A DNA stretch of 48,121 nucleotides from Deltaproteobacteria bacterium RIFCSPHIGHO2_02_FULL_44_16 (GTDB taxonomy: Bacteria > UBA10199 > 2-02-FULL-44-16). Positions within the stretch are counted from its first letter, which is position 1; every line of letters starts with the position of its first letter. Below, piece by piece: positions 1,970-32,960 of this stretch. The stretch lies in assembly GCA_001798185.1 (NCBI GenBank), contig MGRM01000026.1, positions 1 to 48,121 on the forward strand, given 5' to 3'. Below the pieces are notes generated by a model. The model was not told where the DNA came from. It searched no databases and was given only the letters and a program-made list of their open reading frames with translations. A program made the position numbers and the translations under genes.

Positions 1970-1986
1970 CGCCTCGAATTATTAAC

Positions 1987-2059
1987 GCTTGTAGTTTGTA
2001 TCTGAATTCGAACAGGTGAAGTCATCACAGTAGAAATCGTTACACCAAAGACTACAAGC
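1987..2059 (+). promoter_or_regulatory. Long-range stem in the cold-shock 5' leader
   Basis: GCTTGTAGT (1987-1995) and ACTACAAGC (2051-2059) are perfect 9-bp complements bracketing about 55 nt of leader. The stem ends just upstream of the AAGGAGGA ribosome binding site (about 2066-2073). It could set leader structure in a temperature-dependent way, but this has not been folded. Confidence 0.45.
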
Positions 2060-2077
2060 ACATTTAAGGAGGACAGT

Positions 2078-2287
2078 ATGTCCAAGAAGAAAGGAACCGT
2101 AAAGTGGTTCAACAACAGTAAGGGTTTCGGTTTTATTACCCCAGATGATGGCGAAAAGGATCTTTTCGTCCACCACACCAGCATTTTAGCGGAAGGGTAC
2201 AAATCCTTAGCTGAAGGCCAAAGAGTTGAATTCAACGTTGGCCGCGGTCCTAAAGGCGAAAACGCCACAGATGTTGTGGTTATCTAA
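2078..2287 (+). CDS. CspA-family cold-shock protein
   Basis: This 69-aa protein is a single cold-shock domain. It has the usual opening [15 protein letters not shown], the RNP1 motif KGFGFI and the RNP2-like LFVHH, and it ends in the normal position with no extension. Such proteins are OB-fold RNA/ssDNA chaperones that unwind mRNA structure in the cytoplasm. A strong AAGGAGGA ribosome binding site precedes the ATG. The gene has a long leader with a predicted stem and is followed at once by an intrinsic terminator and then typA. Whether it is cold-inducible or constitutive cannot be told from the protein. Confidence 0.96.
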
Positions 2288-2311
2288 CTTTTGAAACCAG
2301 CATTCTGAAAG

Positions 2312-2345
2312 AAAAACCGTCAGGGCAAAACCCTGGCGGTTTTTT
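2312..2345 (+). terminator. Intrinsic terminator between csp and typA
   Basis: The stem AAAAACCGTCAGGG / CCCTGGCGGTTTTT encloses a CAAAA loop and ends in a T-run. One G-T type mismatch lies in the stem. The T-run stops only 9 nt before the typA ATG, so it either ends the csp transcript or controls read-through into typA. Confidence 0.85.
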
Positions 2346-2354
2346 ATTCCTCTT

Positions 2355-4160
2355 ATGAAAAAAGCTCGAAACGAAAAAATTCGCAATATCGCCATTATTG
2401 CCCATGTCGATCATGGCAAAACGACTCTCGTCGATTTTATGTTGCGACAAAGTGGCACCTTTCGCACAAATCAAACCGTCAATGAACGCGTCATGGACAG
2501 CATGGATTTAGAGCGTGAGCGCGGTATTACCATTGCTTCCAAGAATTGCTCGGTGCAATGGAAAGGCGTAAAAATTAATATTATCGATACTCCGGGCCAT
2601 TCTGATTTTGGAGGTGAAGTCGAACGTGGCCTCAAAATGGTGGATGGAGCAATTCTGCTTGTCGATGCTTCCGAAGGTCCCCTTCCCCAAACACGTTTTG
2701 TCCTTAAAAAAGCTCTGGAAGAGCATCTGAAAATCATTGTGGTCATCAATAAAATTGACCGCAAAGATGCACGTCCACAAGAAGTGCTCGATGAAATTTA
2801 TAGTCTCTTTATTGATCTCGATGCGAATGATCATCAAATCGAGTTTCCGATTCTGTATGCCATCGGGCGCGATGGCATTGCGCAAAAAACGCTCGAGGAT
2901 CGTGGCGAAAATTTAGAACTTCTTTTTGATACGATTGTCAGTGAAATTCCACCACCAAGCTATGATTCCGATGAACCCTTTCAAATGCTCGTCACGAATC
3001 TCTCTTACTCAGACTACCTCGGTCGTTTAGCCATTGGCCGCATCATGAATGGAAGAGTCGTTAAAAACGATCAACTCGCTTGTCTTGGAAGCGATGGAGC
3101 GCCTCGACGATTGAAAGTTTCGAGTCTTCAAACGTATGAAGGGATTCGTGTTCAAGAAGTCGATGCTGTTGAACCAGGCGACATTCTGATTCTTTCAGGT
3201 ATAGAGCAGGTGGAAATTGGAGATACGATTTGCACGATTGAAACACCAAAAACCTTAAAGCGCATTGTGGTTGATGAACCGACCGTCTCCATGAAATTTA
3301 TGATCAACACTTCTCCTCTTGCTGGTCTTGAGGGGAAAATTGTTCAATCCCGAAAAATTCGCGAACGCCTTCTCAAGGAAACACTTCATAATGTTGCGCT
3401 TCGTGTTGAAGATGCGGCAACGAGTGACAGCTTTATCGTTAAAGGTCGCGGCGAGTTTCAAATGGCCATTCTCATTGAAACGATGCGACGAGAAGGATTT
3501 GAACTGAGCGTTGGCCGTCCCGAAGTTATCCTCAAAGAAAAAGATGGCAAACAACTTGAACCCATCGAGCATCTCTTTATCGATATTCAGGAAGAAGATA
3601 CGGGAATTATCACCGAAAAAATTTCTCGTCGCCTTGGGCGTATGCTCAACATGGTGAACCATGGCACCGGACGTGTCAGGCTTGAATTTTCAATTCCTTC
3701 ACGTGGTCTTATTGGATATCGAAATGAATTTTTGACCGACACCAAAGGTACAGGATTGATGAATTCCTATATTGAAGGTTACGAACCGTATCGCGGTGAA
3801 ATCAAGAGTCGTGTTTTGGGATCGCTTGTTTGTGATCGTGCTGGCAAAACCGTTCCTTACGCTCTTTTTCATTTAGAACCACGAGGGATTCTTTTTGTAG
3901 AATCAGGAATGCCTGTTTATGAAGGGATGATTGTAGGAGAGCACAATCGTCAGCAGGACTTGAATGTGAATGCATGCAAAGAGAAAAAGCTGACGAATAT
4001 GCGTGCAGCAGGTCGAGATGAAAATATTCTTTTAAGTCCAGTCACTCCCATCACTCTCGAGCGAGCCATCACGTTTATTCGCGATGATGAACAGGTTGAA
4101 GTCACTCCTCAAAGCATTCGCTTAAGAAAAAATATTCTTTTGCAACAACAGCGTAAATAA
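2355..4160 (+). CDS. typA: TypA/BipA ribosome-associated GTPase
   Basis: The 601-aa protein is a full-length translational GTPase. It has G1 AHVDHGKT (residues 16-23), the effector RGITI, G3 DTPGHSDF and G4 NKID. The EF-G-like domains follow, then the BipA-specific C-terminal region containing [19 protein letters not shown]. Family members bind the 70S ribosome and help 50S assembly and growth at low temperature or under stress. The ATG has no Shine-Dalgarno sequence and lies 9 nt after the T-run of the csp terminator, which is odd for a gene of this kind. No other in-frame Met lies before the G1 motif, so this start is favoured. Neighbouring the cold-shock gene fits a shared cold response, but that is inference. 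Confidence 0.96.
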
Positions 4161-4228
4161 TTTTGATATTTTTTCATCTTTGCACTATGTAAAGAGAGAA
4201 AAAACAACAAGGAGATCAAATTAAAATC

Positions 4229-5284
4229 ATGAAAGACGTCATCACCCAAGAACGCGCTTTCTTTTTTCTTCTTCTTTTCCTGTTCGTCATTGGTATTTTG
4301 ATTATTTCTCCCTTTTTAGAAGCTATTCTTTTAAGCATCGTTTTTGCTGTGCTTTTTTATCCTCTTCATGAAAAATATCTGCAATGGACATCGGGAAGAA
4401 AGAATATTGCCTCCCTTCTTTCCACTGCTTCCTTTCTGATTATACTTATTATCCCCATCTCCATTTTACTGCACTTAACGGCCGTCCAGCTTTCCCATAT
4501 CCTTGTAACTCAAACGCAAACACAGGAACCAAGTTTATCTGAATCCGTTTTTTATTTTCAGAAAAAGATGATCGTCGGCGCAAAAAAAATTGAATCCCTT
4601 TTAGGAATGCAATTTAATTTGGTTCCTCTTATTAAAGAAAGAACACACCAACTTACCCAAGTTTTTGCAAAACACATTCTGGCAATCATATCTGGGATGG
4701 CAAATGTGGCCTTAGATTTTTTTGTGATGATGATGCTTTTATTTTATTTTTTTCGACAAGGACCTGAGTTTTTGAGCAAGGGAATCCATCTCTCTCCTCT
4801 GAAGGATCGATATGGGAAAAAATTAACAGATGAAATCAAAATCACTATTAAAGGAGTTTTTTATGGAAGTTTTTTCGTCGGTTTTCTTCAAGCAACCTTC
4901 GCCAGCATTGGGTATTATTTCGCTCACGTGGAAAATTATTTATTTTGGGGAATTATTACCTTTATTGCTTCCTTTCTTCCCACCATTGGCACTGCCCTTG
5001 TCATTATTCCCTTAAGCTTCGCTCTTCTTTTTCAAGGACATGTCAAACATGCCATTTTTCTCATTGCTTATGGAACGTTGATTGTTGCAACCCTTGATAA
5101 TTTACTCAGACCATTTCTCATTCATAGTCATGTGCATCCGGTTATTCTTTTGCTTGGCATTGTCGGAGGCATTACGCTTTTTGGTCCTCTTGGGTTACTT
5201 TTAGGACCCATAATTATGGCAACTCTTATTGCCGCTCTTCGTATCTACGCTCATGATTTCTCTGGGGTGGTTTCCACATCATGA
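4229..5284 (+). CDS. AI-2E family transporter (first copy)
   Basis: The 351-aa membrane protein belongs to the AI-2E (PerM/YdiK/TqsA) family. About seven or eight hydrophobic segments are visible, two or three at the N-terminus and the rest after residue 150. The family C-terminal signature FGPLGLLLGPI follows LLRPFLI. Members export small molecules or ions; TqsA affects autoinducer-2 export, and others act as Na+/H+ antiporters. The substrate here cannot be deduced. The AAGGAG ribosome binding site is about 13 nt upstream of the ATG. A second copy lies at 41010. Its 3' end overlaps the convergent minus-strand gene by 34-59 bp. Confidence 0.88.
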   Translation: MKDVITQERAFFFLLLFLFVIGILIISPFLEAILLSIVFAVLFYPLHEKYLQWTSGRKNIASLLSTASFLIILIIPISILLHLTAVQLSHILVTQTQTQEPSLSESVFYFQKKMIVGAKKIESLLGMQFNLVPLIKERTHQLTQVFAKHILAIISGMANVALDFFVMMMLLFYFFRQGPEFLSKGIHLSPLKDRYGKKLTDEIKITIKGVFYGSFFVGFLQATFASIGYYFAHVENYLFWGIITFIASFLPTIGTALVIIPLSFALLFQGHVKHAIFLIAYGTLIVATLDNLLRPFLIHSHVHPVILLLGIVGGITLFGPLGLLLGPIIMATLIAALRIYAHDFSGVVSTS

Positions 5285-5564
5285 CCGAAGAAAGAATAAG
5301 ATTGATAAAAGTCTCTAACATCATCAGCTTCAAATAAGGTTTCTTTTTTGAAACTTTCATTTCTTTTTTTTGCCTCGCTCTGCTGGTGATTAAAAACGTG
5401 GACAACGCTGTCCCAACAGTGCTTGTCCATGGATGTTCTTGAACCAAGCCGTTCACATTCAAAGCACTTCGGAAGTATGAAGCCAAAACATGAAAATCTT
5501 GTTTTAGCTGCGCTTTACTGGCCTCACATTGGTGCATCAAAGTTTTTTGATTTGTTTTGTGCAT
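5226..5564 (-). CDS. Small YqjK-position protein with probable frameshift
   Basis: This is the last gene of the DUF883/holin-like cluster. The intact frame gives a protein of about 112 aa whose N-terminal half (HQCEASKAQLKQDF, then EHPWTSTVGTALSTFLI) resembles the short helical and membrane segments of YqjD/YqjK proteins. After a run of eight A residues (complement of 5364-5371) the frame becomes unconvincing. The -1 frame instead encodes a plausible acidic tail (RNESFKKETLFEADDVRDF...TPEKS) ending at 5251. A single-base indel, slippage, or a sequencing error could explain this. An internal ATG at 5537 forms a TGATG overlap with the upstream stop and may be the real start. It overlaps the convergent AI-2E gene. 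Function unknown. Confidence 0.5.
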   Translation of the reverse strand: MHKTNQKTLMHQCEASKAQLKQDFHVLASYFRSALNVNGLVQEHPWTSTVGTALSTFLITSRARQKKEMKVSKKKPYLKLMMLETFINLILSSVMMWKPPQRNHERRYEERQ

Positions 5565-5944
5565 TTTAATTTCCGCGTCCAAAAAAAATACCTAAAAAGA
5601 AAACTACCGAATGTTAACCAAAAAAGACCGGAAAGAAATGAAGCAAGCCAAACCTGAATATTAAAAAATGAAACAAGACCAAAAACGATTCCATATGAAA
5701 GAAACATGACACCCATTAAAAGAGTAACCAGAGAAGAGATAGCAACAAGTACCGAAAGAAGAGATTGAAAAATAAAACTCTTAAAAGAAAACTTTGCGAG
5801 ATCTACACGTGCTCGGAGATAATCTAAAACATGAAGAGCAACCTCGCGTAGCTGTTCTAGAATCTGGGATGCTTCCGCTATATTCTCCTCTGTTTTTCTT
5901 TGATGCGAGGATGACGCAGGAGAAGACGTGTCCTCAGATTTCAT
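5537..5944 (-). CDS. Phage-holin-superfamily (YqjE-like) membrane protein
   Basis: The 135-aa protein has a polar Ser-rich N-terminus (to about residue 40), an amphipathic stretch with LDYLRARVDLAKF, and two hydrophobic segments (about residues 58-85 and 92-118). A Lys-rich C-terminus follows. The order and size fit the phage-holin III / YqjE family found next to DUF883 genes. Such proteins are inner-membrane proteins of stationary or osmotic stress operons, with no established biochemical role. Its ATG overlaps the stop of the DUF883 gene (ATGA, 5941-5944), so translation is probably coupled. The holin label reflects the protein family, not a lytic role. Confidence 0.7.
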   Translation of the reverse strand: MKSEDTSSPASSSHQRKTEENIAEASQILEQLREVALHVLDYLRARVDLAKFSFKSFIFQSLLSVLVAISSLVTLLMGVMFLSYGIVFGLVSFFNIQVWLASFLSGLFWLTFGSFLFRYFFWTRKLKCTKQIKKL

Positions 5945-6273
5945 CTACGTCTCCACAATGCTCCTAAGACGAGACCAATTCCCGCAGCAATAAGGAGTGA
6001 CTTCACCGGGTTTTCTCGGATGTGGCCCTCCATGTTTTTTTCCAATCTTCGCGCACCTTGAATTCCTTCACGATAATATCCTTTTGCATTCTCACCCAAA
6101 AATTCCATGGTTTCACTTGCGAGTTCTTTTGTTATTTTTCCCATCTCCTGCACATTGTGACCAATAGCAGCAGCCTTTTCCCGTAGATCCGTACTGTGTT
6201 GTGAAAAATCTGATCCTCTGAACTGCTGAGCCTTGTCTTGAGTCTTATCTGATGTTTTTTCTTGTTGTCCCAT
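5941..6273 (-). CDS. DUF883 (ElaB/YqjD/YgaM) family protein
   Basis: The protein is 110 aa from the chosen ATG at 6273. A longer reading to 6315 exists, but only 6273 has an AAGGAGG site at good spacing. It has a polar N-terminus with many Gln and Lys, a long predicted amphipathic helix (about residues 25-85), then the hallmark ENPVKSLLIAAGIGLVLGAL and a terminal WRRR. The C-terminal glycine-rich helix anchors the protein in the inner membrane. E. coli relatives YqjD and ElaB bind ribosomes in stationary phase under RpoS control. The gene is the first of a coupled trio and follows a DUF1328 gene. Confidence 0.85.
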   Translation of the reverse strand: MGQQEKTSDKTQDKAQQFRGSDFSQHSTDLREKAAAIGHNVQEMGKITKELASETMEFLGENAKGYYREGIQGARRLEKNMEGHIRENPVKSLLIAAGIGLVLGALWRRR

Positions 6274-6652: not shown

Positions 6653-6805
6653 TAGGGCGTGTCCTCATTTTGAGCGTAACTATTTGAAACAAAAGAAATC
6701 TCGACTATTTGTCATCCCCGCATGCTTAAAGCGGGGATCTCCTTCAAACACTGGAGATTCCCGCCTTCGCGGGAATGACATTTTACCAAATGAGGACACG
6801 CCCTA
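6653..6805. mobile_element. MITE-like element with 18-bp perfect terminal inverted repeats
   Basis: TAGGGCGTGTCCTCATTT (6653-6670) and its exact reverse complement (6788-6805) bound a 153-bp element with no coding capacity. Ends of this GGGCGTGTCC type and a TA-containing boundary resemble IS5-group elements, so it is probably a non-autonomous derivative. A REP pair (6711-6779) is nested inside it. It fills most of the 345-bp gap between the DUF1328 and transglycosylase genes. Confidence 0.6.
6711..6779. repeat. REP pair, copy 1
   Basis: GTCATCCCCGC...GCGGGGAT is joined head-to-head to ATTCCCGCCTTCGCGGGAATGAC. Each half is a hairpin and the outer ends are inverted GTCAT. Five more copies occur in the window (12378, 21584, 22798, 28249 and 32898). 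Confidence 0.85.
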
Positions 6806-12377: not shown

Positions 12378-12436
12378 GTCATTCCCGCGAAAGCGGGAAT
12401 CTCATGAGATCCCCGATAAAGACATTCGGGGATGAC
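12378..12436. repeat. REP pair, copy 2
   Basis: GTCATTCCCGCGAAAGCGGG is joined through CTCATGAG to a hairpin ending CGGGGATGAC. It ends 3 nt before the start codon of the first giant gene, so its last bases provide the only purine-rich stretch near a ribosome binding site. Confidence 0.85.
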
Positions 12437-12439
12437 AAT

Positions 12440-15400
12440 ATGATCTCAATTAAAACTCCAATTATTTACGGCAACAGCGATGGTCTAGAATCCTATCGAT
12501 ATAAAGACGCGATCGACAAATCTCGTCGGCAGGAAAATGTTGTAGGATTTCTCACAGACATCTATGAGAACGTCTCCGCATGGCTCGAAAAATATTCTGA
12601 TGATCGTGATTTTATGAGATGGAAACAAAACCGCGCTCAGATTCTTCAAGATTGGGAAAAACAGGTCGAAGACTTTAACCACAATGGTTATCTCGACATT
12701 GCCTGGAATGTCATTAAGGGAGCAGTCGCAACGTTTACAGACTTATTACAAACAAAAAAGAGTTCACCAGCAACCGGTCGTCTTCCGAAAGACTATGCCC
12801 CAGAATGGGACGACGATGAGAAGTATCTTGTCTCTTTATATAATATTGTTTCCATTCAAGAAGCTGGCGCTTACGTCTTTAACGGTCGACTGTCTCGTGC
12901 AGAGCTTCATTCCAAATGGACACTTCTAAATACGAGAAAAGAAAAAATCGCAAGACTTCCAAAAATAATTCAAGCGAATCCTTATGATCTTGCAATCGTC
13001 GGGAAGCAACTCGATCATCAATTTAACGACAAACATGCTCTCTCTTTTCGCGATCTCAATACTCTTGCTGCCATGCTTGAAGATTATCTTTCTGTCTATT
13101 TTACAAATAATAATTTAAAAGCTTACGGTTATCAAAATGTCAGCGCTCGCTCTCTTCTCACCGATTTTCAGAGAGATCATCTGGGTCGTGCACACATTAA
13201 TTGTGGAATATTTGCAAAAATCGGTGTTGCACTCTTTCAACATCTCGACCTGACAAAAATTTCCTTGGGTCATATTGATGGCTTTATCGATGGCGAACGT
13301 ATTGGACACTTAGTTGCTTTTGCTCATTACCGTAATCGTCTCACCAACGAAAAAACGATGCTCGTGATTGACAACGCACAAGTGAGCCTCGTGCCACTCG
13401 CGGAAAAAGACGATTTTGAAGAAAAAGCACGTGAATATGCAGAAGCAGTTCCATTTCGTTCGTATGATAAATCTCGTTCTATTTCATTTGAGCTGCAACA
13501 GGTCGAAACGGTGGAGATCGAAGAATATCACGAAATGACAGCTCTCCCCTCTTCCCAGAAAAAAGAATCATTTGAGCTTCCAGCCTCAGCTGCAGGCGTT
13601 AAGCTTCTCATTCCGATTCCGTCGAGCGGAAAACAAATGAGAGATCTTTCCATCAAAGGAAAAGTCTTCCATATCTCTTCAGAACTTCTTGAGGATGGAC
13701 AAGTTTTCTACTCGATTGAAATTCCCCATGAAGGTCGGACAGTTTTTGGGCTTTATGAACCTTGGACAGATCGCGCAAAATATAATCTCTCTGCACGTTT
13801 CCGTCTCAATCATGCTGAAATGCTTGCCCTCGCTTCTGATCTGGACCGCGCCAAGAAAAAACAAATGATGGGCGCAATCTCTCAAGTGACAGAAGTTTTA
13901 CGTGATACTCGCGATACTGAATTACGACTTCAACTTTTGGATATCGTTTTTCACATCATGGAAGAGGTTGGATATTTGCCTGGCTTTGATCGCTATTTTG
14001 AAAATGAAACCGTCTCTCAAGCTGAATATGAAACACAATTGCGCCGCTTGGCAAACATCAATTTGCAAACACGGTTTGAAAATCGATTCTACCAGCTCAC
14101 TCCCTCAACTGACGTCAGTAAAGCGGCATTTCAAAAAGTAGGATATGACCTCAGCGATCCTCAAAGAACATTGAGAGATAATGAATCAGCACTGGCTGCT
14201 CACCTCCTGGCGGAGTCACTGAAAACCCTCAAGGATCACCTTGAAAGCATCGAAGCACAGCATGTTCTGGATCGACTCTTTACGCTCTATCAACGCACGA
14301 GAGATGCTTTTGTTGCACACTCTTTGGATTTTTTATTTCTCCAGGCAATGGGTTGGAGTGAAGAAGCAGAAAAAGAAATAGAAAGACGTTATGAAGCTTT
14401 TTATCAAACTGGAGATGGAATGCTCAGGCAATTGAGAAACAAGCCGTATGAAGAGCTTTCAGTTCATGAAAAATCGCTGATCACGTATCGTTTTGAACTT
14501 GCAACTCGATTTTCGAATGAAAGCGCTGAACGATATGCGGATCAGGTTTTTGCACAATATACTTCGGTGATCGCAGAGGGTTTCACTCGTTATCGCTTTC
14601 CGGCTTCGACTCTTCATGATAGATATCGCTTTGCCGTTGCAACCTATAGCCGGTTAAAAAGAATTTCGAATCCTCTTTCAGAAGAACAAAAAGGAGAACT
14701 CATCGCATCTGTGGCATCTGTCATTGCATACGATCTCTCTTTTCATGATAGGCAACTGATGCGTGACCTCTGGGAAGAGATGCTTCAATATTCCCCGCCC
14801 TCTTCAGTACGACAGACGAAAATTATCGGACTCTTATTTATGCGCACATACGAAGGCGCTCCAATCACGAGTAGGCTCTATAAAGATGCGATTTGGCCAT
14901 CGCTTCGCATGCCACACAATCAACCTGAAACTTTTGCCCGAGTTGCACGTGATCTTGCTTGGACACCGGAAGCAGCTGCACTGCTTATTGCCGATCTTTC
15001 AAAACCTCCGACTGAATGCAATACTCTGGCACCAGCGCTCTTTGAGCTGCTCGCTCTCTTTCTTGAGCGTGGAATCCTTTTTCAAGGAGAGGTGGAAAAA
15101 CTTCTCGCAGAATTTTTGAAGAGGCTCGGATCACAAGCACATGATAAATATTTAGCTCTCGCCATTGGATATCTTGCAAAAAATAATAGAGCATTAGCAG
15201 ATAACATCTACACAAATCTTGTGGTAAAAAAAGAAGAAGAAAAGCGTAAAGGTGAAAGAGATCCAGCAGGCATGGTCACGCATTTTTCACAAGCACATAT
15301 CCCTATGGAAGCTTATGAAAATAATTCTGCGGTTCTTGCCTCTGCTTCCCTTCTTTGCGAAGGAGAGAATGTTCAAGACGAAAGATGTCTTCAGTTCGGA

Positions 15401-16858
15401 CGCAATTTTGGAACACTACTTCGTACAGCGCTCACGGATATCACTTCCGTACAACTTTCGTCAGAAGCAGAGCATGGATTCAAGAGAGTTCGAGAAATTT
15501 TCCGCATTCTTGAAAAGCGCCCGGCCCTGCAACAAGGGATCAAAGATGAACAAATCATTCTTGTTCACGATCTTTTTGAAACACTTCTTGTGCATCCCAA
15601 CCGACGCATTCGTGATACAACCATCTATCTTATAGCGGAATTTTCAGACCTTGCCGCACTGTATAAAATCGATGTCAGCGAGCTTGAACAAAAAGCGCGC
15701 GAACGCCTTGAAAAACAACAGATTCCTCTTGGTCCGGTTATGCGCTACGAAGATATTGTTTCTGCTCTCACTCACAACCCGGACCATTTCTATAGACAAC
15801 AAGCCGCAACTGCAACGACGTACGTTGTCGTGAATGCTCATGCACTCTCTGAGCTTGATGGAAAAACAGAAGTGCCAGAAGAGATTGCACGAAGAATGCA
15901 ACATCTCTATGCGCTGACACAAACTGACACATCTTATCGCGTTGCTGCAGCTGGCGAGCGCTCATTACGACTTGCCACAGGCGCTGTTGAATCTTATCGG
16001 AGTGCACCTGAAGCTTATCCCTGCCCAAATCAAATTGAGGGAGCACAGCTCTGCTATCGACAGGTATTCCGAACGGACCGCGGATTTCACATGGTCCCGG
16101 TCATTCTTGAGGATGATGCTGATATCAACCATGTCACCCAGTTAACAGGATCACTTGAAGCTTATTATAAAACCTATCCCTATCAGCAACATTCCCGTTA
16201 CTTTCATGCGCTTGAAGGAACGAAAAATCAGCAAGCAGATGTCGTTGTCGATGATTTTGATAATATGCAGAACATCCCAAGAAGTCCACGTCTTGCGTTT
16301 GATAGATGGGATCCTGTTCTTCTTGACGTAGACATGGATGAAGTAAGTATGGATGAAACTCGAAAACCTTTAGAAGCAGGTTCGGTTTTTTATACGCTGC
16401 GTGTTGGAAAAACGACGCAACTGAACGATCTTGTATCTCAAAATGCAAAACCCGCGTTTGGTCAGGCTTCAACTGAACTTCGCAGGCGCTTTATGGAACT
16501 TCATCTCCTTTCAAAAGAAAAAGCATCGCATGCAAATGAAATAGCGCAGCTACCTGAAGATGATTTCCATCAACTCTGGAAAGGGTGGCACGACAACAGT
16601 GAAATGCTCTGGACCCAGGCAGTCTCAAAACATGAGGAGGGAAATTCACTTCCCATGGAAAAATTGCTCGTGATGCTTCAGATCCTCACCTCAGAAACAT
16701 CCGATCTCTTTCTCTTCTCATCATCCTCTTCTGTAGGGAAATGGAATATTATCTATGATGGCACGCAAACAGGTCGTATTCAGAGAATTAAAACACAGAG
16801 GAAAGAATTCCAATTTTCTTATGGAGCTGATGGAAGACTTTCGTCGTTACAAGGATAA
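12440..16858 (+). CDS. Giant protein 1: transglutaminase-like domain, helical repeats, YD-like tail
   Basis: The protein is 1472 aa from the ATG at 12440. A start at 12404 would lie inside a REP palindrome and is unlikely. No family is recognised. Features shared with its downstream paralog are: an N-terminal segment with an EF-hand-like loop (D78-x-N80-x-N82-G-Y-L-D86); a candidate transglutaminase/papain-like triad Cys255 (HINCGIFAKIG), His290 (IGHLVAFAHY) and Asp311 (LVIDNAQ); a long alpha-helical middle with HEAT-like segments (LLVHPNRRIRDTTIYLIAEF); and a C-terminal GRIQRIKT...FQFSYGADGRLSSL module like a YD repeat. No signal peptide or membrane segment is visible. The stop is 2 nt from the next ATG. 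The domain call is inference. Confidence 0.85.
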   Translation: MISIKTPIIYGNSDGLESYRYKDAIDKSRRQENVVGFLTDIYENVSAWLEKYSDDRDFMRWKQNRAQILQDWEKQVEDFNHNGYLDIAWNVIKGAVATFTDLLQTKKSSPATGRLPKDYAPEWDDDEKYLVSLYNIVSIQEAGAYVFNGRLSRAELHSKWTLLNTRKEKIARLPKIIQANPYDLAIVGKQLDHQFNDKHALSFRDLNTLAAMLEDYLSVYFTNNNLKAYGYQNVSARSLLTDFQRDHLGRAHINCGIFAKIGVALFQHLDLTKISLGHIDGFIDGERIGHLVAFAHYRNRLTNEKTMLVIDNAQVSLVPLAEKDDFEEKAREYAEAVPFRSYDKSRSISFELQQVETVEIEEYHEMTALPSSQKKESFELPASAAGVKLLIPIPSSGKQMRDLSIKGKVFHISSELLEDGQVFYSIEIPHEGRTVFGLYEPWTDRAKYNLSARFRLNHAEMLALASDLDRAKKKQMMGAISQVTEVLRDTRDTELRLQLLDIVFHIMEEVGYLPGFDRYFENETVSQAEYETQLRRLANINLQTRFENRFYQLTPSTDVSKAAFQKVGYDLSDPQRTLRDNESALAAHLLAESLKTLKDHLESIEAQHVLDRLFTLYQRTRDAFVAHSLDFLFLQAMGWSEEAEKEIERRYEAFYQTGDGMLRQLRNKPYEELSVHEKSLITYRFELATRFSNESAERYADQVFAQYTSVIAEGFTRYRFPASTLHDRYRFAVATYSRLKRISNPLSEEQKGELIASVASVIAYDLSFHDRQLMRDLWEEMLQYSPPSSVRQTKIIGLLFMRTYEGAPITSRLYKDAIWPSLRMPHNQPETFARVARDLAWTPEAAALLIADLSKPPTECNTLAPALFELLALFLERGILFQGEVEKLLAEFLKRLGSQAHDKYLALAIGYLAKNNRALADNIYTNLVVKKEEEKRKGERDPAGMVTHFSQAHIPMEAYENNSAVLASASLLCEGENVQDERCLQFGRNFGTLLRTALTDITSVQLSSEAEHGFKRVREIFRILEKRPALQQGIKDEQIILVHDLFETLLVHPNRRIRDTTIYLIAEFSDLAALYKIDVSELEQKARERLEKQQIPLGPVMRYEDIVSALTHNPDHFYRQQAATATTYVVVNAHALSELDGKTEVPEEIARRMQHLYALTQTDTSYRVAAAGERSLRLATGAVESYRSAPEAYPCPNQIEGAQLCYRQVFRTDRGFHMVPVILEDDADINHVTQLTGSLEAYYKTYPYQQHSRYFHALEGTKNQQADVVVDDFDNMQNIPRSPRLAFDRWDPVLLDVDMDEVSMDETRKPLEAGSVFYTLRVGKTTQLNDLVSQNAKPAFGQASTELRRRFMELHLLSKEKASHANEIAQLPEDDFHQLWKGWHDNSEMLWTQAVSKHEEGNSLPMEKLLVMLQILTSETSDLFLFSSSSSVGKWNIIYDGTQTGRIQRIKTQRKEFQFSYGADGRLSSLQG

Positions 16859-16860
16859 AC

Positions 16861-19800
16861 ATGGCGATACAAAGTAAAAAATTTTCGATTCTTTATTTCT
16901 CTGACGGCATCGAATCCTATCGCCACATGCATGAGATTGATGAAGAACGTCGGGAGAAAGCGGTGAGTGCTTTTCTGAATGATATTTACGATGTCATAAC
17001 GCCAGCGTTCAACTTAAATGCGGCAATATTTCGTGAAACGAATATCAAACAATGGAAGGAAGATCGCGCAAAAATTATTGCTGCATGGCGGCCTTATGTG
17101 GAAGACAAGAACAATAATGGTTACCTTGACATCGCAGGAAACATCATTGAAGGATCGCTTCTTCTTTATGACCCAAATAAAAAAGTGCACGGTTATTTCC
17201 CAGACGCTGGAAGTCTCGTTGCACTTCAGAATGCAGGCGCATTCATCTTAAACGGAAGGCTCCCCGCAGACGTTCTCGATCCGAAATGGCAAATTGCTTC
17301 TGAAACCAGAACAAAGAAAATAAGTCGCCTTCCTGCAAACGTACAAAAAAATCCCTATCAGCTCGCAATTGCAGGGCAAACGCTTTTTCGACGCTTTGGA
17401 GACAAAACCCTCACACGGAAAGATCTTCAGGATATGGCGTCAATCCTCTCTGATTATCTTCCAGCTTATTTTGTAAATGCTGGAGCAAGTGGTCCTATTT
17501 ATGGAATGAACATAACACCCACGAGCGAACTGACCGACTTTAAGCGAGATCGCATGGAGCGTGCTTTAGTGGACTGCGACATTCTGGCAGGTGTCGGCGC
17601 GGCGCTTCTGAGAAATATAAGAGCATTTGAAATTTCATATCGAGAAATTTCCGGAAAAAAAGGGGCAGTCGGTCATGTTATTGCAGTTGCTGAGTATACG
17701 GATCCTTCTGGTGAACGTTCTGCCTTGATCGTCGATAATGAGATTGTCTCCGTTGTTTTGCTTGAAAAGGATGAATCTCTCGAAAAAAAGATCGAAGAAC
17801 ACGTTGCTGCACAATGGTCTCACAATTATGATGCATCTGAGCCCGTAAAGATTACCTTTCATCCCGGTCCTGTATATGATGAGAGTCTCAAAAAGAGTGA
17901 CGAGATTGACGCATCCCTTGCACAGTATACTGTCGCCTTTGACGTTCCTCTTCAACAGTATCATGCAACTTTTCAATTTTCTCTTGAAGCTGGAAAAACT
18001 ATCACAACGACATCTGCTGTTCATGCCGGAATAACGTATCATACAACATTAGAACGCATCAACGATGGATATGTTCTGTATACAGTGAAACCTCAAGGAA
18101 ATGGGCTTTCGGTTTTTGGACTGTATGATCCCTATATGCGCACCGCCAAATATGCCATTCCCACGACGATTCCCCTTAATCGCGCAGAAATGAAAGCTGT
18201 GGTGCTCGACCTCGAAAAATTAAAAACCCACACCTCAAGATTCGATTCTCCCATAAGTCAGATTCTCGGTAATACGCGCGATGAAGTTCTTCGGGTTCAC
18301 CTTTTAGATCTTTTTTTCAACATCATGAATGAAATTGGCTGCGAACTTGATCTCTATTCCTATTTTGAAAATCCGCTTGCTCCTGAAGATGAAATAGCTC
18401 AACAGCTCAGACGTCTTTCAACCATTCCACGACATCCTTTGAATGATTATTTGAATCTGAACGGTCCCATACCCGCAACGATGAGTAAAAATGCGAAAGA
18501 GGCATTTCTTCGCGTGGGAAACGAGCTTGCTCAGAAACCCGGTCGTGAAGCGGAAGTGGGAGCTTTTCTTCTCGGCGAATACTTAACAGAAACAAAAGAT
18601 ACTCTTTCAGATTCGGAAATTGATGGCTTACTTGAAAGCCTCCTTTCTCTGTATCAAAGTTCAGAAAATACTTATCTCTGCATCTATATCGTGAAACTTT
18701 TTTTAAGGCTCGTGGAACCGCGAGACAGATTACAGAAAAAAATAGAAGAGAAATTTTCTGCTGCGCTGAAAAATAAAAACAAACTTTTCCAACATGTCCA
18801 AACAATATCTGATGAAATACTAAAAGAACATGAACGTCGAGCCATTGCATATCTTTATACACTTGCATCTGCATTTGCTTCAGATGCTGCCACAGCGGAA
18901 GCAGATGCGATCTTCAAACAGTATCCTTCCATTTCGCTCATGAGTCTTGAATGGAATGCCAAAAATTCCTTGCGTGGACCAGCCGAAGCAGCGCAGATAC
19001 TTTCCACGTATGAACGAGCCAAACGACTTCGAGGAATACTTTCGGAAGCAGAGTCAAGAGCTTTGACACAACAAGTTGCTCAAGAAGTGCTCAAGGCGGA
19101 TCCAACCAATGCCTCCGCGATTTTCTCAGGAAATACTCTGCTTGATCTCATCTGCGAATTTGAAGAACTTTCTGATCCTTCAGAAACAGAGCAAGCGCTT
19201 CTCAGTCTTTTGCAGATTCCTCTTTATCATCAACGTCCAGTAACTGAAGAATTTTATACCACACATATTCGTCCCATTCTCAAACGCGGTTCAACTGATA
19301 AGCAAAGCAATAAACTCGCTGATGTGTTTATTCGCATGAGCACGAAGCTGACCTTTACTGCGACAGCAGCTACTCTTTTTACGAAAGACATTGTGGATTT
19401 CAAAATCATCGACACGTGTTATACCTATCTCGATATTCTGAAACATTTTCTGAGCGGAAAATTTTTGTCACCGCAACAAACAGTTGCAGCATTTGCACAT
19501 TATCTCGATTCTTTATACAGCTCTGATATACAGCAAGCATGCAAAACACAGGCTATGAGATCGCTGCCAGATGCAGACCGAACCATAGCTGATCTTCTTT
19601 ACCGCGAAATTCTCAACAAACCGCGCAAGACACATCCATCAGGAAAAATGCCAGATGGGATTTTGACCTATGCTCCCGGGACTTATGTTGCTGAACCTGG
19701 CGACTCGACAGCAATCCTTATCGCTTCTGCATCGGCGATGTGTAATGACAACGAAAGCGACCATGAAGAAGAGTGCAAGAAGATGGGTCGTTTGCTTGCC

Positions 19801-21144
19801 GCACGTTTGCTGCTTTCACTGGAAAAAGTGAAAACTGCCAAAGGACCGAACGATGCTGGCGAAGCCAACGCTCAGTTTCCTGAATTTTTACGGCTTCTCA
19901 ATCATCGTGATATCCTTCTTCATGAAATGCGAGATGAGCAGGTGATTCTTGCTTCCGATCTTTTTGAAGAACTTCTCGTTCATCCCAATCGAAGTGTCCG
20001 TGATCAGGTTCTCCGCAATTTCGATTGGTTCCTCCAAATTGCCGAAAAAAAAGGACTGCAGTTTCCAGAGCTTGCCAAACAGGCAATGATTGTTCAAGCA
20101 CGACAAAAGATACCGATTGGTCCCGTGATGACATATCGTGATCTCAAAACAGTTCTTGCAGAAGATCCGAATCATGATCGCCGAAAAGATGCGGCAGGTG
20201 CTATCAAATATCTCGTCATCAATCAGAAAACTCTCCAAGAACTTCATGGGAAAGAAGCTCCACCAGACGATTTGGTGAGAGATGTAAAAAATTTGATTGC
20301 GATCACGCAATCAGACACTTCTTATCCCGTCGTCGAAGCTGGAGAACGCTCTCAACGTCTTATCGAGTCAGTGGTCGAATCGTATCGCACAGAACCTGAA
20401 CTTGTTGCTTGCGAAGATGAAGTAGAAACAAAGTCGTGTTATCGCTCTACCTACAACACAGAGCGAGAGCCAGGAATTGTTCCCGTCTTACTTCGAGAAA
20501 ATGTGGATGAGGCAAAAGCGCAAGAGACAGTGAAAGTAATTGAAGCTTATTATCGAAGATTTCCGTATCAACAACATACCCATTATTTTTATGCGATTGA
20601 ATTTTTAGGGAAACCCTCGGGTAAGGGCGAAAAAGCGGTGAAAGTTATCGTTGATTATCCTGACATTCGTGATCGAAGCTCTGCCAACCTTACTCTCCAG
20701 GTGGCATCAAATGCTGCATATGAAGATATCATTGCTCATATGGCCTATCCTGCTTTTGGACAAGCGCCAGAGCACTTGCGGAATAACTTTATCAACAAAG
20801 GTATATTCGCTACGTGGCAAGCCACGGATGAATTTTATAATCTCTGGAAAGCCTGGCTCTCTGACAGTCAAGGAGTGTGGGAGAAAGTTTACTCGGAATT
20901 TCAGAAGAATACCCCGGATTGGGACAGCCCTCTTGCACAACTTTTGATCATGATCCAGATCATGTCCTCTGAAGCAGAAGAAATTATCACCTTTTCTGCT
21001 TTCGAAAAAAATGGATCGTGGAAAATTGAATATGATCTTGCAAGAAAAGGAAAAATTCGGTCGATCACGATGGGAGAGAAAAAATATCAGTTTTCCTATA
21101 ATAACTCTGGAATGCTCATAAAAGTCATGACTTCCGCTTCATAA
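16861..21144 (+). CDS. Giant protein 2: paralog of the upstream giant
   Basis: The protein is 1427 aa. It aligns with giant protein 1 over its whole length, with many shared blocks (DGIESYRH, NNGYLDIAGNII, DLFEELLVHPNRSVRD, GPVMTYRDL, TQSDTSYPV, FPYQQHTHYF, YQFSYNNSGML). The candidate triad is conserved: Cys239 (LVDCDILAGVG), His272 (VGHVIAVAEY), Asp292 (LIVDNEI). The EF-hand-like loop D82-x-N84-x-N86-G-Y-L-D90 is also conserved. The AAGGA ribosome binding site lies in the end of the upstream gene, so the pair is translated as one operon. The divergence at most positions implies an old duplication maintained by selection. No export signal is visible. Function unknown. Confidence 0.85.
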   Translation: MAIQSKKFSILYFSDGIESYRHMHEIDEERREKAVSAFLNDIYDVITPAFNLNAAIFRETNIKQWKEDRAKIIAAWRPYVEDKNNNGYLDIAGNIIEGSLLLYDPNKKVHGYFPDAGSLVALQNAGAFILNGRLPADVLDPKWQIASETRTKKISRLPANVQKNPYQLAIAGQTLFRRFGDKTLTRKDLQDMASILSDYLPAYFVNAGASGPIYGMNITPTSELTDFKRDRMERALVDCDILAGVGAALLRNIRAFEISYREISGKKGAVGHVIAVAEYTDPSGERSALIVDNEIVSVVLLEKDESLEKKIEEHVAAQWSHNYDASEPVKITFHPGPVYDESLKKSDEIDASLAQYTVAFDVPLQQYHATFQFSLEAGKTITTTSAVHAGITYHTTLERINDGYVLYTVKPQGNGLSVFGLYDPYMRTAKYAIPTTIPLNRAEMKAVVLDLEKLKTHTSRFDSPISQILGNTRDEVLRVHLLDLFFNIMNEIGCELDLYSYFENPLAPEDEIAQQLRRLSTIPRHPLNDYLNLNGPIPATMSKNAKEAFLRVGNELAQKPGREAEVGAFLLGEYLTETKDTLSDSEIDGLLESLLSLYQSSENTYLCIYIVKLFLRLVEPRDRLQKKIEEKFSAALKNKNKLFQHVQTISDEILKEHERRAIAYLYTLASAFASDAATAEADAIFKQYPSISLMSLEWNAKNSLRGPAEAAQILSTYERAKRLRGILSEAESRALTQQVAQEVLKADPTNASAIFSGNTLLDLICEFEELSDPSETEQALLSLLQIPLYHQRPVTEEFYTTHIRPILKRGSTDKQSNKLADVFIRMSTKLTFTATAATLFTKDIVDFKIIDTCYTYLDILKHFLSGKFLSPQQTVAAFAHYLDSLYSSDIQQACKTQAMRSLPDADRTIADLLYREILNKPRKTHPSGKMPDGILTYAPGTYVAEPGDSTAILIASASAMCNDNESDHEEECKKMGRLLAARLLLSLEKVKTAKGPNDAGEANAQFPEFLRLLNHRDILLHEMRDEQVILASDLFEELLVHPNRSVRDQVLRNFDWFLQIAEKKGLQFPELAKQAMIVQARQKIPIGPVMTYRDLKTVLAEDPNHDRRKDAAGAIKYLVINQKTLQELHGKEAPPDDLVRDVKNLIAITQSDTSYPVVEAGERSQRLIESVVESYRTEPELVACEDEVETKSCYRSTYNTEREPGIVPVLLRENVDEAKAQETVKVIEAYYRRFPYQQHTHYFYAIEFLGKPSGKGEKAVKVIVDYPDIRDRSSANLTLQVASNAAYEDIIAHMAYPAFGQAPEHLRNNFINKGIFATWQATDEFYNLWKAWLSDSQGVWEKVYSEFQKNTPDWDSPLAQLLIMIQIMSSEAEEIITFSAFEKNGSWKIEYDLARKGKIRSITMGEKKYQFSYNNSGMLIKVMTSAS

Positions 21145-21583: not shown

Positions 21584-21639
21584 GTCATCCTCGCGAAATC
21601 GGGGATCCAGGTCTGGATTCCTGCTTTCGCAGGAATGAC
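21584..21639. repeat. REP pair, copy 3
   Basis: GTCATCCTCGCGAAATCGGGGAT is joined to ATTCCTGCTTTCGCAGGAATGAC. It lies between the 91-aa gene stop and the desaturase start and may act as a transcript-end hairpin. Confidence 0.8.
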
Positions 21640-22797: not shown

Positions 22798-22864
22798 GTC
22801 ATCCCTGCGAAGGCAGGGATCCAGCACTCAATACTTTCTGGATTCCCGCCTTCGCGGGAATGAC
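22798..22864. repeat. REP pair, copy 4
   Basis: GTCATCCCTGCGAAGGCAGGGAT is joined to ATTCCCGCCTTCGCGGGAATGAC. It sits between the convergent desaturase and methyltransferase stops, a position where it could serve as a bidirectional terminator. Confidence 0.85.
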
Positions 22865-23769: not shown

Positions 23770-25833
23770 TCATTCACTGGAGGGTGAACCAATATACTGC
23801 CATCTCAGATTTCTCCAGATGAAGATAATTTGATGCGCTGCTTTATTGAATTCAGCTTGAGTCCAGTCTTGACCAAGATTTACTTTCCATCGCTGTCCCT
23901 TGATTTCAATCTCATAACCATTCAGAAAATCATGTTTTAGTTTTTCAAAATCCAGTGAGCTTGAGACGACCGAAAGAAAAATTTTTACCTTGTTAGGTGG
24001 CCGCCGCACTCTACTCCGACGTTGACCACGCTGTTCATCCCAGTCGGGCATTTCCATATGAACCTTGTAGGCACATCCAACACCACCAGTACAAGCTGTT
24101 GTCGTTCCTCCGCTTGCACCAAATTGAAGTGAATAGACCTTCTGATCGCGACCATCTAACAAATCGGAACTGATGTAACGAAACGTTTCTAAAAAAGACG
24201 AAGGAACTGGAATCGTAAGATCGAATTTGCTTTCGAGGGCCACATTCACAATACGAAATGTGCGATGGAGAGTAGTAGTCGGATTGGTTGGTTCTCCATA
24301 AACGATCTGAGAAGCCCCTTTTGCTTCAATCCAAATTTCATGCGTAAATTCACCGCATGTATAGAAAATTTCTGAGTGGAATGTCCTGGGAACTGGGCCC
24401 CCGCCAAAGTTATATCGATTCTCGCCAATTTCTTCTACACTCCAGGGTAAATAAGGTAATTGCGCGGCCGCTTGACAATCGGGATTGCTATTGTTGAGAA
24501 ACCTATTTTCTGTGCGTATGGAAAAGGTATGCGGTCCAACCAAATTTTGAACCGAAAAATCTTCTTCATATTTGCTGTAAAGTGGCAGATAAATCAAAAC
24601 ATCATTTCGCCGCTCTCCAAACCCTTGAGCGCTGTTTGTTGGAACTTTTGATACACGCACACGATAGGATTTTTGTCCTATGACATTCCCACCGATATCA
24701 AGCACACGAACTGGAATGGAAAGTTCATTCTCATAATAAGCTTCTTTCACACGAAGATAGAGAATTTTCTTGAATTCGCGATCCGGAAAAAGCGAACTTT
24801 GGAACGATAATTTTTCATGAGTATCAGGTTGAGCGGTTACGAATGACGCTCCACTATAATAAGATATTTCTTCGACTCGTTTTTCCAATGCGCTTCCTAA
24901 TTGGGAAATATCATAATCATATTCGACAGTGTAATCAGAACGGTGACCAATCACTTCTATTTTTAAAATCTGTTTCTCATCAAGCATAAAAAGTTCTTCC
25001 GTTGCGACAATCGGTTTCTCCGATGAACGAAGTGAAGTGCTCGTGAAATCAATAAGGTCTCCATCTGTTGGACCTGACTGCAATAAGGCTCCAATACGTG
25101 ATGTCTGCATGATCGTCACGTTCGGTTGAAATTTATTTTGACGTGGCTCGGAAACACTTTGATGATAATGTGCGTAACCTTTATAAATTTTAATTTCAGC
25201 AGTTTCTGAAACTGTTAGCTCAAAAGTCTTTGAGACTTTGACACCTCGACTGTCTGTCACCATCACATCTACTTTTGAAAACTTTCCAACATTGAGCGCT
25301 TTTCCTTTCAAGAGAACATAACCATCCTGATCACAGGTGAGCTGTCTTGATGGATCCTGCAGACATGAAGCTCTAGTCGACGCTTGATCTTCGAAAAAGA
25401 GTCCCGCTGGCGCATTGAAAAGATCCCATGCATAAGGCGCAACACCACCCACCACACTTAACGTTTGAGGTTGTTCTACATTAAACACTTGTGCTGAAAG
25501 TGGACTTACAGTTCTGATTTCAAGATCTGCGACTGTTGTTCCTCCACCCCCGCCATTTCCTGCACCACCGTTACCACTGCCTCCACCACTACTACCACCA
25601 GATCTACTTCCTCCACCCCCGCCACCACGAGCTATGCGATCGCGAATTTGTTCTTCACTTTCTTCATTTCCATTATTCCCTGTGACGTTTTCATCGCTCT
25701 CAAAAACAGTGACCGTCCCACCTTGAGAAGGATCATCCTTCACACGAACCGCTGCAGGGTCAGATGAATTGCCACATCCCACAAAAAGAAAACTTATAAA
25801 AAAAAGCGCTCTTACTTTCCGATGTATCGCCAC
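23770..25833 (-). CDS. Modular lipoprotein with Gly-rich linker and Ig-like domain
   Basis: The 687-aa protein has a lipobox LFVGC (Cys20, then Gly), so it should be an outer-membrane lipoprotein. The head NSSDPAAVRVKDDPSQGGT is nearly identical to that of its upstream paralog. A glycine/serine linker of about 30 residues (about 69-99) follows. Next is a cadherin-like/He_PIG-type Ig domain (VFNVEQPQTLSVVGGVAPYAW) and then large beta-rich regions with no recognised family. A pair of conserved segments ends at RRPPNKVKIFL. Its first Met overlaps the stop of the upstream gene by 22 nt, so translation is probably coupled. Likely role is surface binding or structure, by inference. Confidence 0.8.
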   Translation of the reverse strand: MAIHRKVRALFFISFLFVGCGNSSDPAAVRVKDDPSQGGTVTVFESDENVTGNNGNEESEEQIRDRIARGGGGGGSRSGGSSGGGSGNGGAGNGGGGGTTVADLEIRTVSPLSAQVFNVEQPQTLSVVGGVAPYAWDLFNAPAGLFFEDQASTRASCLQDPSRQLTCDQDGYVLLKGKALNVGKFSKVDVMVTDSRGVKVSKTFELTVSETAEIKIYKGYAHYHQSVSEPRQNKFQPNVTIMQTSRIGALLQSGPTDGDLIDFTSTSLRSSEKPIVATEELFMLDEKQILKIEVIGHRSDYTVEYDYDISQLGSALEKRVEEISYYSGASFVTAQPDTHEKLSFQSSLFPDREFKKILYLRVKEAYYENELSIPVRVLDIGGNVIGQKSYRVRVSKVPTNSAQGFGERRNDVLIYLPLYSKYEEDFSVQNLVGPHTFSIRTENRFLNNSNPDCQAAAQLPYLPWSVEEIGENRYNFGGGPVPRTFHSEIFYTCGEFTHEIWIEAKGASQIVYGEPTNPTTTLHRTFRIVNVALESKFDLTIPVPSSFLETFRYISSDLLDGRDQKVYSLQFGASGGTTTACTGGVGCAYKVHMEMPDWDEQRGQRRSRVRRPPNKVKIFLSVVSSSLDFEKLKHDFLNGYEIEIKGQRWKVNLGQDWTQAEFNKAAHQIIFIWRNLRWQYIGSPSSE

Positions 25834-27974
25834 TGAATATTCTCCCAGGTAATCTTATAGCCTTCATAGCCTTTGGATCTTGACACTTTTTCAGCCTTGC
25901 TCCAGTTGCGATCTAGAGACACAGCCCATGTTGAACCTTTTATTTCAACAGGAGACCCTGTCAGAAAAAATTTCAATGCGTTTTCTGTCGTTATTCCAGC
26001 TTGAGATGCGAATTCAATTGTTACTTTTGTAGGTGGACGACGAAGTGTTGCTCGTTTTCTATCATATTCCACATCGACATCGGGAATGAGCACAGTAGCC
26101 AGTTCTGCACAAGAATCTTCTACATTTCCTGCCACTTGTGGACAATCATTTGAGAAGGTCATTAAATCACGAGTCCTGGCATAAACTGCCTCACCATATG
26201 AATCCAGTAAATAAACTTTTAAGCCACGATTAACTTCACCTGGAAGAGGTATCGTCGCTATAAAATTTTGTTCTAAGGCGACATTACTGACGTGCACGAG
26301 GCGATTGAAGAGATAAGATGAAAACGCATGATTACTGATGCTCTTTGGTTGTGGACAAGAATCTTTAGCTTCGATCCAAACCGATTCATAAAAATCGCCA
26401 CAGAGGGAAATACGATTCATTGTTTCCGGTGTCGATAAGGAATCTGTTCGGTAATGTGTAGCACCATAGAAGAGATAACTGTCATTTCCGTTGGAAATAA
26501 TGGACCAGCTCCTATTGATCATTTCTTTAGCAAGCGCGGCACAAACCGGATCGTCATTTCTAAATCTAAAATCTTTGTAAGAAATAGAAAATGTATACGG
26601 CTTTATCCCACCTCGAATCATAAGCCCTTCTTCATATCCAGCAAGCAGAGGCAAATGAATATCATTCAATTGAGTAAAAGATTCGACAGAAAAAGGCGGC
26701 GCTGAAACGCAGGGATCGACTCCTCTCACTGTGAATGTGTCTTCTTTGATATTGCCCAAAGAATCACGAACACGTATGGGAATTGTCAGGTTCTTTTCAT
26801 AATGGTGATGCTTCACACGCAAATAGAGAGAACTTGTAGTACTAGAAGAAACTGGAGAAGCATCCCCTACTGAAACTTTGGTACCGTCTGACTTCGCTGT
26901 ATAAACAATAGGAGCTTGTGGTACAGAAATTGCTTGAACTCGCTTTTCATGTGCGTTTCCCCATTGCGAGGAATCATCATCAAACTCCCATACATATCCA
27001 GTTCCATGTCCAACAATTTCAATTTTTAAAATTTCATCCTTTGCAAGAGATATAGTACCTGACGATATGATTGCACTTGGTGCTTCATCATATCGATCAG
27101 GGGTGGATGTGAACGCAATTAAATCTCCTTTTTTGGCTTTCGGTTGCAACAAAGCACTTAAATCTCCTTTTTTGGCTTTCGGTTGCTGCAAGAGAGAAAA
27201 AAGTCCTCTTGAGTTCAGAGTCTTTTGAACAACGGAGCCATTTGAGGGATTGACGTCCTGATCTTCTGAATCTTCTCCTTGATAATGACCATAACCTTTA
27301 TAAATTTTAATTTCAGGAGTTTCTGAAACGATTAATTCAAAAGTTTTTGATACTTTCACTCCTCGACTGTCCGTTACGATCACATCGATCTTCGAAAACT
27401 TTCCGACATTAAGAGGTTTCCCTTTCAAGAGAACATAGCCATCTTGATCACATGCTAATTGTCCTGATGGATCCTGAGAACATGATGGAGCACTTCCTGA
27501 ACGTTGATCTTCCAAAAAAAGCCCTGAAGGTGAGTTGAGCATATCCCACGCATAAGGAGGAACACCACCTGTGACCTTTAATGTTTGAGGTTGTTCAACA
27601 TTATAAGAAAGTCCTGAAAGAGGACTCGATGTTTGGATCTCAAGTGGCGCAACTGGACCACTTCCGATTTCATTTTGACACGCGCTGCTGCAGCCATCAC
27701 CGCTTACTGTACCACCATCATCACACTGTTCTCCAGTTTCAGTGCGCTGATTCCCGCATATCGATCCGCTTCCACCTTGTTCCCTATCACGACCAAGTCG
27801 ATCGCGTAATTCATCTTCACTTTCTCTCTCTCCTGTTACATCTTCATCTGTTTCAAAAACCGTGACCGTTCCACCTTGAGAAGGATCATCCTTCACACGA
27901 ACCGCGGCAGGGTTAGATGAATTGCCACAAGAAACGAACATCATAAGACAAAGAAGAAATAAAAAACGTCGCAT
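25812..27974 (-). CDS. Modular lipoprotein with DUF4215 repeat and Ig-like domain
   Basis: The 720-aa protein has a lipobox FVSC (Cys16, then Gly). A single Myxococcus-type Cys-rich repeat (CGNQRTETGEQCDDGG, residues 73-99) occupies the position that holds a Gly linker in its downstream paralog. An Ig-like domain with the GGVPPYAWDM motif follows. Near residue 270 a 13-residue block, QPKAKKGDL-type, is duplicated in tandem (27120-27186). The C-terminal RRPPTKVTIEF region matches the paralog. The ribosome binding site CAAGGAG is good. It is the first gene of a two-gene operon and is divergent from the 1070-aa protein. Confidence 0.82.
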   Translation of the reverse strand: MRRFLFLLCLMMFVSCGNSSNPAAVRVKDDPSQGGTVTVFETDEDVTGERESEDELRDRLGRDREQGGSGSICGNQRTETGEQCDDGGTVSGDGCSSACQNEIGSGPVAPLEIQTSSPLSGLSYNVEQPQTLKVTGGVPPYAWDMLNSPSGLFLEDQRSGSAPSCSQDPSGQLACDQDGYVLLKGKPLNVGKFSKIDVIVTDSRGVKVSKTFELIVSETPEIKIYKGYGHYQGEDSEDQDVNPSNGSVVQKTLNSRGLFSLLQQPKAKKGDLSALLQPKAKKGDLIAFTSTPDRYDEAPSAIISSGTISLAKDEILKIEIVGHGTGYVWEFDDDSSQWGNAHEKRVQAISVPQAPIVYTAKSDGTKVSVGDASPVSSSTTSSLYLRVKHHHYEKNLTIPIRVRDSLGNIKEDTFTVRGVDPCVSAPPFSVESFTQLNDIHLPLLAGYEEGLMIRGGIKPYTFSISYKDFRFRNDDPVCAALAKEMINRSWSIISNGNDSYLFYGATHYRTDSLSTPETMNRISLCGDFYESVWIEAKDSCPQPKSISNHAFSSYLFNRLVHVSNVALEQNFIATIPLPGEVNRGLKVYLLDSYGEAVYARTRDLMTFSNDCPQVAGNVEDSCAELATVLIPDVDVEYDRKRATLRRPPTKVTIEFASQAGITTENALKFFLTGSPVEIKGSTWAVSLDRNWSKAEKVSRSKGYEGYKITWENIQWRYIGK
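27120..27186. repeat. Tandem 39-bp duplication inside lipoprotein gene
   Basis: A stretch of 28 bp beginning TAAATCTCCTTTTTTGGC is repeated at a 39-bp period (27120-27147 and 27159-27186). It encodes a 13-residue duplication. The DNA copies are nearly identical over 27 bp, so the event is recent. Confidence 0.75.
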
Positions 27975-28210
27975 TGAAACTCCTTGAGATATTTCTTCGC
28001 CCTTTGAGAGTTAAGAAAAGCAACTTTTATGCCATAAAAGATCGTTATAACTCTATGAATTTTATAGTTCTTTTTTGGTGTTGCGGACTGGCCCTGGGGG
28101 ATCAGGTCACCGAAAACACCTTGAAAGGAGAGAAAAGAGACCACAGAGAACGAAGACAAACTTGTCGATCTTTGAGCCAAATTGTTTCATAATGATGAAA
28201 CTTAAAGGCT

Positions 28211-28349
28211 GTCATCGCGAGCCCGAAGGGCGTGGCGATCTCATTTTTGTCATCCCCGAATGTTGTTATCGGGGATCCAGGACTGGATTCCCGCTTTCGC
28301 GGGAATGACTCATTGGGATTGCTTCGTCGTTGATGCTGCTCGCAATGAC
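28211..28349. repeat. Composite repeat: outer GTCAT-GCGAG pair with nested REP
   Basis: The 403-bp gap between the two divergent lipoproteins (27975-28377) is largely repeat. GTCATCGCGAGCCCGAAGGG (28211-28230) and the inverted CTCGCAATGAC (28339-28349) form outer ends. REP copy 5 (28249-28309) sits between them. I saw no other clear feature in the gap; divergent promoters must lie in 27975-28210 or within the repeat. Confidence 0.7.
28249..28309. repeat. REP pair, copy 5
   Basis: GTCATCCCCGAATGTTGTTATCGGGGAT is a hairpin joined to ATTCCCGCTTTCGCGGGAATGAC. It lies inside the composite repeat 28211-28349. Confidence 0.85.
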
Positions 28350-28377
28350 ACATTTTAAAATTTTCCAAGGAGATTTC

Positions 28378-32960
<4,583 letters not shown>

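Follow-up and report, generated by a model that had tools for sequence, protein, structure and literature searches.

What are the two giant proteins, here denoted P1 and P2, that are encoded side by side in the genome of Deltaproteobacteria bacterium RIFCSPHIGHO2_02_FULL_44_16, and is either of them likely to be an enzyme? The pair was analyzed in its contig (MGRM01000026.1, contig C26; the whole stretch of 48,121 nucleotides is referred to below as the window), which belongs to a 1.98 Mb MAG that is 97.5% complete. A preliminary description of the locus had reported a shared Cys-His-Asp triad in an architecture belonging to no known family. That architecture is indeed missing from Pfam and NCBIfam, where neither the two proteins nor their sub-regions gave a match above the cut-off, and a PDB sequence search with both proteins found no relative, but partial relatives do exist, namely, two shorter proteins (P3 and P4) and giant proteins of Omnitrophota. 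What is new is that a tandem pair of giant proteins combines a divergent transglutaminase-like (TG) core with a pseudo-gluzincin module.

Table 1. Features of the P1-P2 locus and partial relatives (window positions unless another contig is named)
Feature	Position	Strand	Remarks
P1	12440..16858	+	1472 aa, 169 kDa, without signal peptide
P1 EF-hand/dockerin-like loop	12671..12706	+	D78-x-N-x-N-G-Y-L-D, motif only
P1 TG-like core	13148..13378	+	about residues 237-313; MAFFT and hhalign
P1 triad codons	Cys255 13202-13204, His290 13307-13309, Asp311 13370-13372	+	
P1 degenerate gluzincin-like domain	16412..16723	+	HExxH position reads SQNAK (16436-16450), EDFA position reads DDFH
P1 C-terminal "YD-like" tail	16724..16855	+	common to Omnitrophota gluzincin modules
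P2	16861..21144	+	1427 aa, tandem paralog of P1
P2 EF-hand/dockerin-like loop	17104..17139	+	D82-x-N-x-N-G-Y-L-D, motif only
P2 TG-like core	17515..17742	+	about residues 219-294; MAFFT and hhalign
P2 triad codons	Cys239 17575-17577, His272 17674-17676, Asp292 17734-17736	+	
P2 degenerate gluzincin-like domain	20713..21015	+	HExxH position reads AHMAY (20734-20748), deletion before EDFA position
P2 C-terminal tail	21016..21141	+	same module as P1 tail
REP-like palindromic element	12378..12401	+	adjoins alternative P1 start 12404; outside the protein system
REP-like palindrome copies	6756-6779, 12378-12401, 21616-21639, 22841-22864, 28286-28309		
P3, distant paralog	contig C27 of the same genome, L005:7535-11038	-	1167 aa
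P4, homolog	JADGCS010000043 (L017)		1195 aa; Deltaproteobacteria MAG of the same class

A native tandem pair of paralogs

Both ORFs are present as originally reported and align over their whole length (BLASTP, 660 bits, 32% identity), and this full-length paralogy supports the proposed descent of P1 and P2 from one ancestral gene through an old tandem duplication. The shared triad was likewise recovered, MAFFT pairing C255/H290/D311 of P1 with C239/H272/D292 of P2. All 6 Cys of P1 are kept in P2, and Cys255 is the only one before residue 860 of P1. The codon-position GC of the two genes resembles that of the housekeeping genes hslU and topA, which marks them as native. The ATG of P2 lies 2 nt past the P1 stop and, because the sequence AGGA stands just upstream of P2, translation of the two genes is likely to be coupled. 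The longest P1 ORF extends from 12404 to 16858 (+), with an alternative ATG at 12404 upstream of the start adopted in the preliminary description; given that this ATG lies in or beside a REP-like palindrome, the start at 12440 is more likely to be the true one. The palindrome itself (GTCATTCCCGCGAAAGCGGGAATC) occurs in 5 copies in the window, with 0 expected by chance.

No signal peptide-like stretch was seen in P1-P4, in agreement with the earlier statement on P1 and P2, nor was there a clear transmembrane segment. The genes in the neighborhood either have housekeeping functions or are unrelated (BipA, AI-2E transporters, a desaturase, HslUV-XerC and TopA-DprA), and no secretion link was found. 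Elsewhere in the window, positions 23770-31590 encode DUF4215/myxo-type cysteine-rich acidic repeat proteins and neighboring large ORFs, which are probably surface proteins.

A transglutaminase-like core around the triad

The claim that the triad belongs to a transglutaminase- or papain-like core was examined with profile-profile comparisons. The reference was an alignment of 28 TG-core domains taken from PF01841 matches in the same class, against which a two-sequence profile of P1 and P2 was scanned in windows along the protein using hhalign. The score peaked solely over the triad segment (29.8-31.9, P = 1.9e-4 to 8.4e-5) and did not exceed 22.2 in partly overlapping windows, 16.0 in all remaining windows, 13.6 in 60 column shuffles, and 14.9 in 29 control windows of the P3/P4 pair, which lacks a TG domain. 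Five alternative choices of reference sequences gave P values of 1.9e-5 to 7.1e-5; overall, the segment scored 31-34 at P values of about 1e-4 to 2e-5. The Cys, His and Asp of the pair are placed in register with those of the TG domains. When P1 or P2 alone was compared with the TG set, the result was suggestive only (P = 0.004-0.005), and a direct comparison restricted to four TGs of the DCD type gave a weak signal (P = 0.014). Three giant TG proteins, aligned over their full length and compared with the full pair, again had the TG core as their top local match (P = 0.058). A HMMER profile of the TG set gave no significant match to P1 or P2, so that the profile-profile method alone detects the core. 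PF01841 itself stays below threshold in P1, P2 and throughout this genome, whereas 24 of the 46 genomes of the class are positive, often in giant ORFs.

Like PF01841 (Transglut_core), the pair shows the order Cys-helix-strand-His-strand-Asp, with spacings of 33-35 and 20-21 residues, and aligns with it in register; unlike that family, P1 and P2 fall under the detection limit, the core is fused to a degenerate gluzincin module, and the residues usual around the Cys (G-x-C) and the His (H-x-W) are altered. Giant TG proteins from other genomes of the class (L081, L083, L087 and L092) are similarly large (about 1150-1900 aa) and possess a TG core, which reads ADCD...LLR...GW/HGW where P2 reads VDCD...LLR...GH, but no homology to P1 and P2 was detected beyond this core, and no gluzincin-like C-terminus was found. 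Three of these proteins (L083, L087 and L092) are mutual homologs with 26-30% identity over most of their length.

AlphaFold models of P1 residues 1-477 (pLDDT 45.8) and P2 residues 116-340 (pLDDT 53.4), each computed from an input of two sequences, are too poor for a judgment of the fold or the geometry of the triad, the check that the preliminary description had proposed; the order of elements after the Cys (helix, strand, strand with the His, strand ending at the Asp, strand) is compatible with TG. Foldseek searches with these low-pLDDT models returned no significant match, a TG-like protein-glutaminase appearing at the weak ranks 13 and 17 (E = 0.24-0.27). Because of these poor models and the lack of a significant Foldseek match, the core is named TG-like by sequence, not by structure. 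On that footing, the assignment of the N-terminal segment to a TG-like core is supported: the order and spacing of the triad are present and remote homology stands above the controls, with the curated PF01841 cut-off missed.

A degenerate gluzincin module at the C-terminus

A C-terminal profile built from three sequences (P3, P4 and L024, an Omnitrophota protein in VGKF01000009), with P1 left out, finds P1 at E = 1.2e-8 and giant Omnitrophota ORFs at E values down to 6e-16, with matches in nine Omnitrophota genomes, the starting genome counted. Several of the matched ORFs are 1950-6388 aa long, and several contain an intact HExxH and a downstream EDFA-like motif. In windowed hhalign comparisons of P1 and P2 with the intact Omnitrophota modules, the peak is at the C-terminus (P = 7.6e-6). 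L024, to which a profile of the C-terminus common to P3 and P4 had led, combines HEAT repeats with an intact HELGH...EDFAT, and its module matches the ATLF/gluzincin families PF07737 and PF15890 weakly (E = 0.012 and 0.038), below the curated cut-offs, so that no membership in these families is claimed.

By these comparisons, the C-terminus of P1 and P2 descends from a gluzincin-type zinc metallopeptidase and has lost its metal ligands and catalytic Glu. Domain homology is present, but the HExxH and the downstream Glu ligand (replaced by Asp), both found in the Omnitrophota member related to the ATLF/gluzincin peptidases, are absent; with SQNAK and AHMAY in place of the motif, the whole zinc site of P1 and P2 is gone. 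P3 and P4, which share the C-terminal third with P1 and P2, retain HAxxH and the downstream Glu, and the catalytic Glu has been lost from them because HExxH reads HAxxH. L024 and the giant Omnitrophota ORFs resemble P1 and P2 in possessing the homologous module, tail included, and differ in that HExxH...EDFA is intact in several and in that no TG-like N-terminus was found; L024 differs further in that its N-terminus resembles a signal peptide and its HEAT repeats are clear.

The final segment, originally described as a YD-like tail, turned out to be the end of this module: the same tail is found in the Omnitrophota module L042 (NRITRIRYEQKVYSFTY) and is thus part of a peptidase-derived module rather than a YD repeat. 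Membership among the YD-repeat (RHS-like) proteins was rejected, given a single YD-like tail, no tandem repeats and no Pfam RHS/YD match. The L042 protein (G146:C11, ORF 121-5970, minus strand; 1950 aa) contains two tandem gluzincin-like modules, each with this C-terminal tail. Within the class of the host genome, an 886-aa ORF (L044; G036:C62, 1934-4591, plus strand) with an intact HEIGH...EDFAEFF is a candidate for a relative of this module that is still active.

Distribution of the two halves and the mid-region

Neither the full pair nor its N-terminal half had a match in the 45 other genomes of the class (46 in all), genome_contigs or viral_contigs, and 285 Omnitrophota genomes produced just three weak matches (E = 0.0017-0.04), which were taken as noise. 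Plasmids searched with P1 and phages searched with P2 gave no match. In P3 and P4, the N-terminal enzyme domain is missing entirely. With no homolog of the N-terminal half outside this genome, its conservation rests on two sequences.

The helical repeats seen in the preliminary description were not confirmed. The mid-region of P1 and P2 has no Pfam HEAT match, windowed hhalign against the HEAT repeats of L024 performed no better than shuffles, and membership among HEAT-repeat proteins was rejected on both counts; the repeats are an unproven impression from the sequence. A beta-rich segment (about residues 370-450) showed no significant homology to the N-termini of P3 and P4.

What the pair may do

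Our best explanation, to which we assign a probability of roughly 60%, is that P1 and P2 are scaffolds in which one probably live TG-like Cys enzyme is joined to a dead peptidase domain that serves for binding. The pair homology, the TG-core similarity and the C-terminal homology behind this reading were computed, whereas we infer fold, catalysis, substrate and location. Each protein would consist of an N-terminal segment bearing an EF-hand-like loop, a divergent TG-superfamily domain of the papain-like Cys-His-Asp type (about residues 220-315), a long mid-region and an ex-gluzincin C-terminal module. Cys255 (Cys239 in P2) would attack an amide to form a thioester, with the His and Asp assisting, a chemistry like that of TG-like proteases, deamidases and acyl-transferases, so the enzyme may be a hydrolase, a deamidase or an acyl-transferase. 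Scaffolding by the mid-region and by the dead peptidase domain may serve to recruit a partner protein or to hold it in position.

That the N-terminal TG fold is catalytically dead too, both proteins being pure scaffolds in which old enzyme folds were kept for binding, seems to us rather unlikely. The clearly dead C-terminal enzyme fold of the same proteins and the high divergence of the TG core, under Pfam thresholds, are in line with this view, but Cys, His and Asp are all retained in two copies that are 32% identical, even though just 6 of 42 His are conserved between P1 and P2 across the whole protein and, of the 11 in residues 1-400 of P1, H290 alone.

Another proposal concerns role and fits either enzymatic reading: P1 and P2 may belong to an Omnitrophota-type "giant ORF" toolkit for contact or predation, acting on partner cells as surface or delivered factors. 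Giant Omnitrophota ORFs with few recognizable domains have been tied to attachment or contact and predation (PMC10066038), which, along with the occurrence of the peptidase-like module in very large Omnitrophota ORFs (3000-6400 aa) and the EF-hand-like loop of P1 and P2, speaks for such a role; we nevertheless consider it doubtful, as P1-P4 have neither a signal peptide nor a clear transmembrane segment, the neighbors are housekeeping or unrelated genes, and no secretion link was found. A coincidental Cys/His/Asp match in another alpha/beta fold unrelated to TG would agree with the lack of significant Pfam and PDB matches and with the low-confidence models but is improbable in view of the sharp, in-register hhalign peak, which is specific to this segment and did not recur in some 40 other windows, in 60 shuffles or in 29 control windows.

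Within the preferred reading of a live TG-like enzyme joined to a dead peptidase domain, a more specific picture can be drawn, to which we give clearly less than even odds: P1 and P2 would be lineage-specific giants in which a zinc peptidase was turned into a pseudoenzyme binding a substrate or partner, possibly forming a heteromeric pair that deamidates or cross-links proteins.

Implications

If this interpretation is correct, the pair would illustrate the construction of poorly annotated giant proteins in uncultured bacteria, with known enzyme folds lying below Pfam detection, one of them seemingly kept alive and the other made into a pseudoenzyme. A single C-terminal module ties the giants of Omnitrophota to those found in a lineage of deltaproteobacterial type, and, being marked as a zinc peptidase by its intact relatives, this module offers a handle for annotating many giant ORFs in which no domain is recognized.
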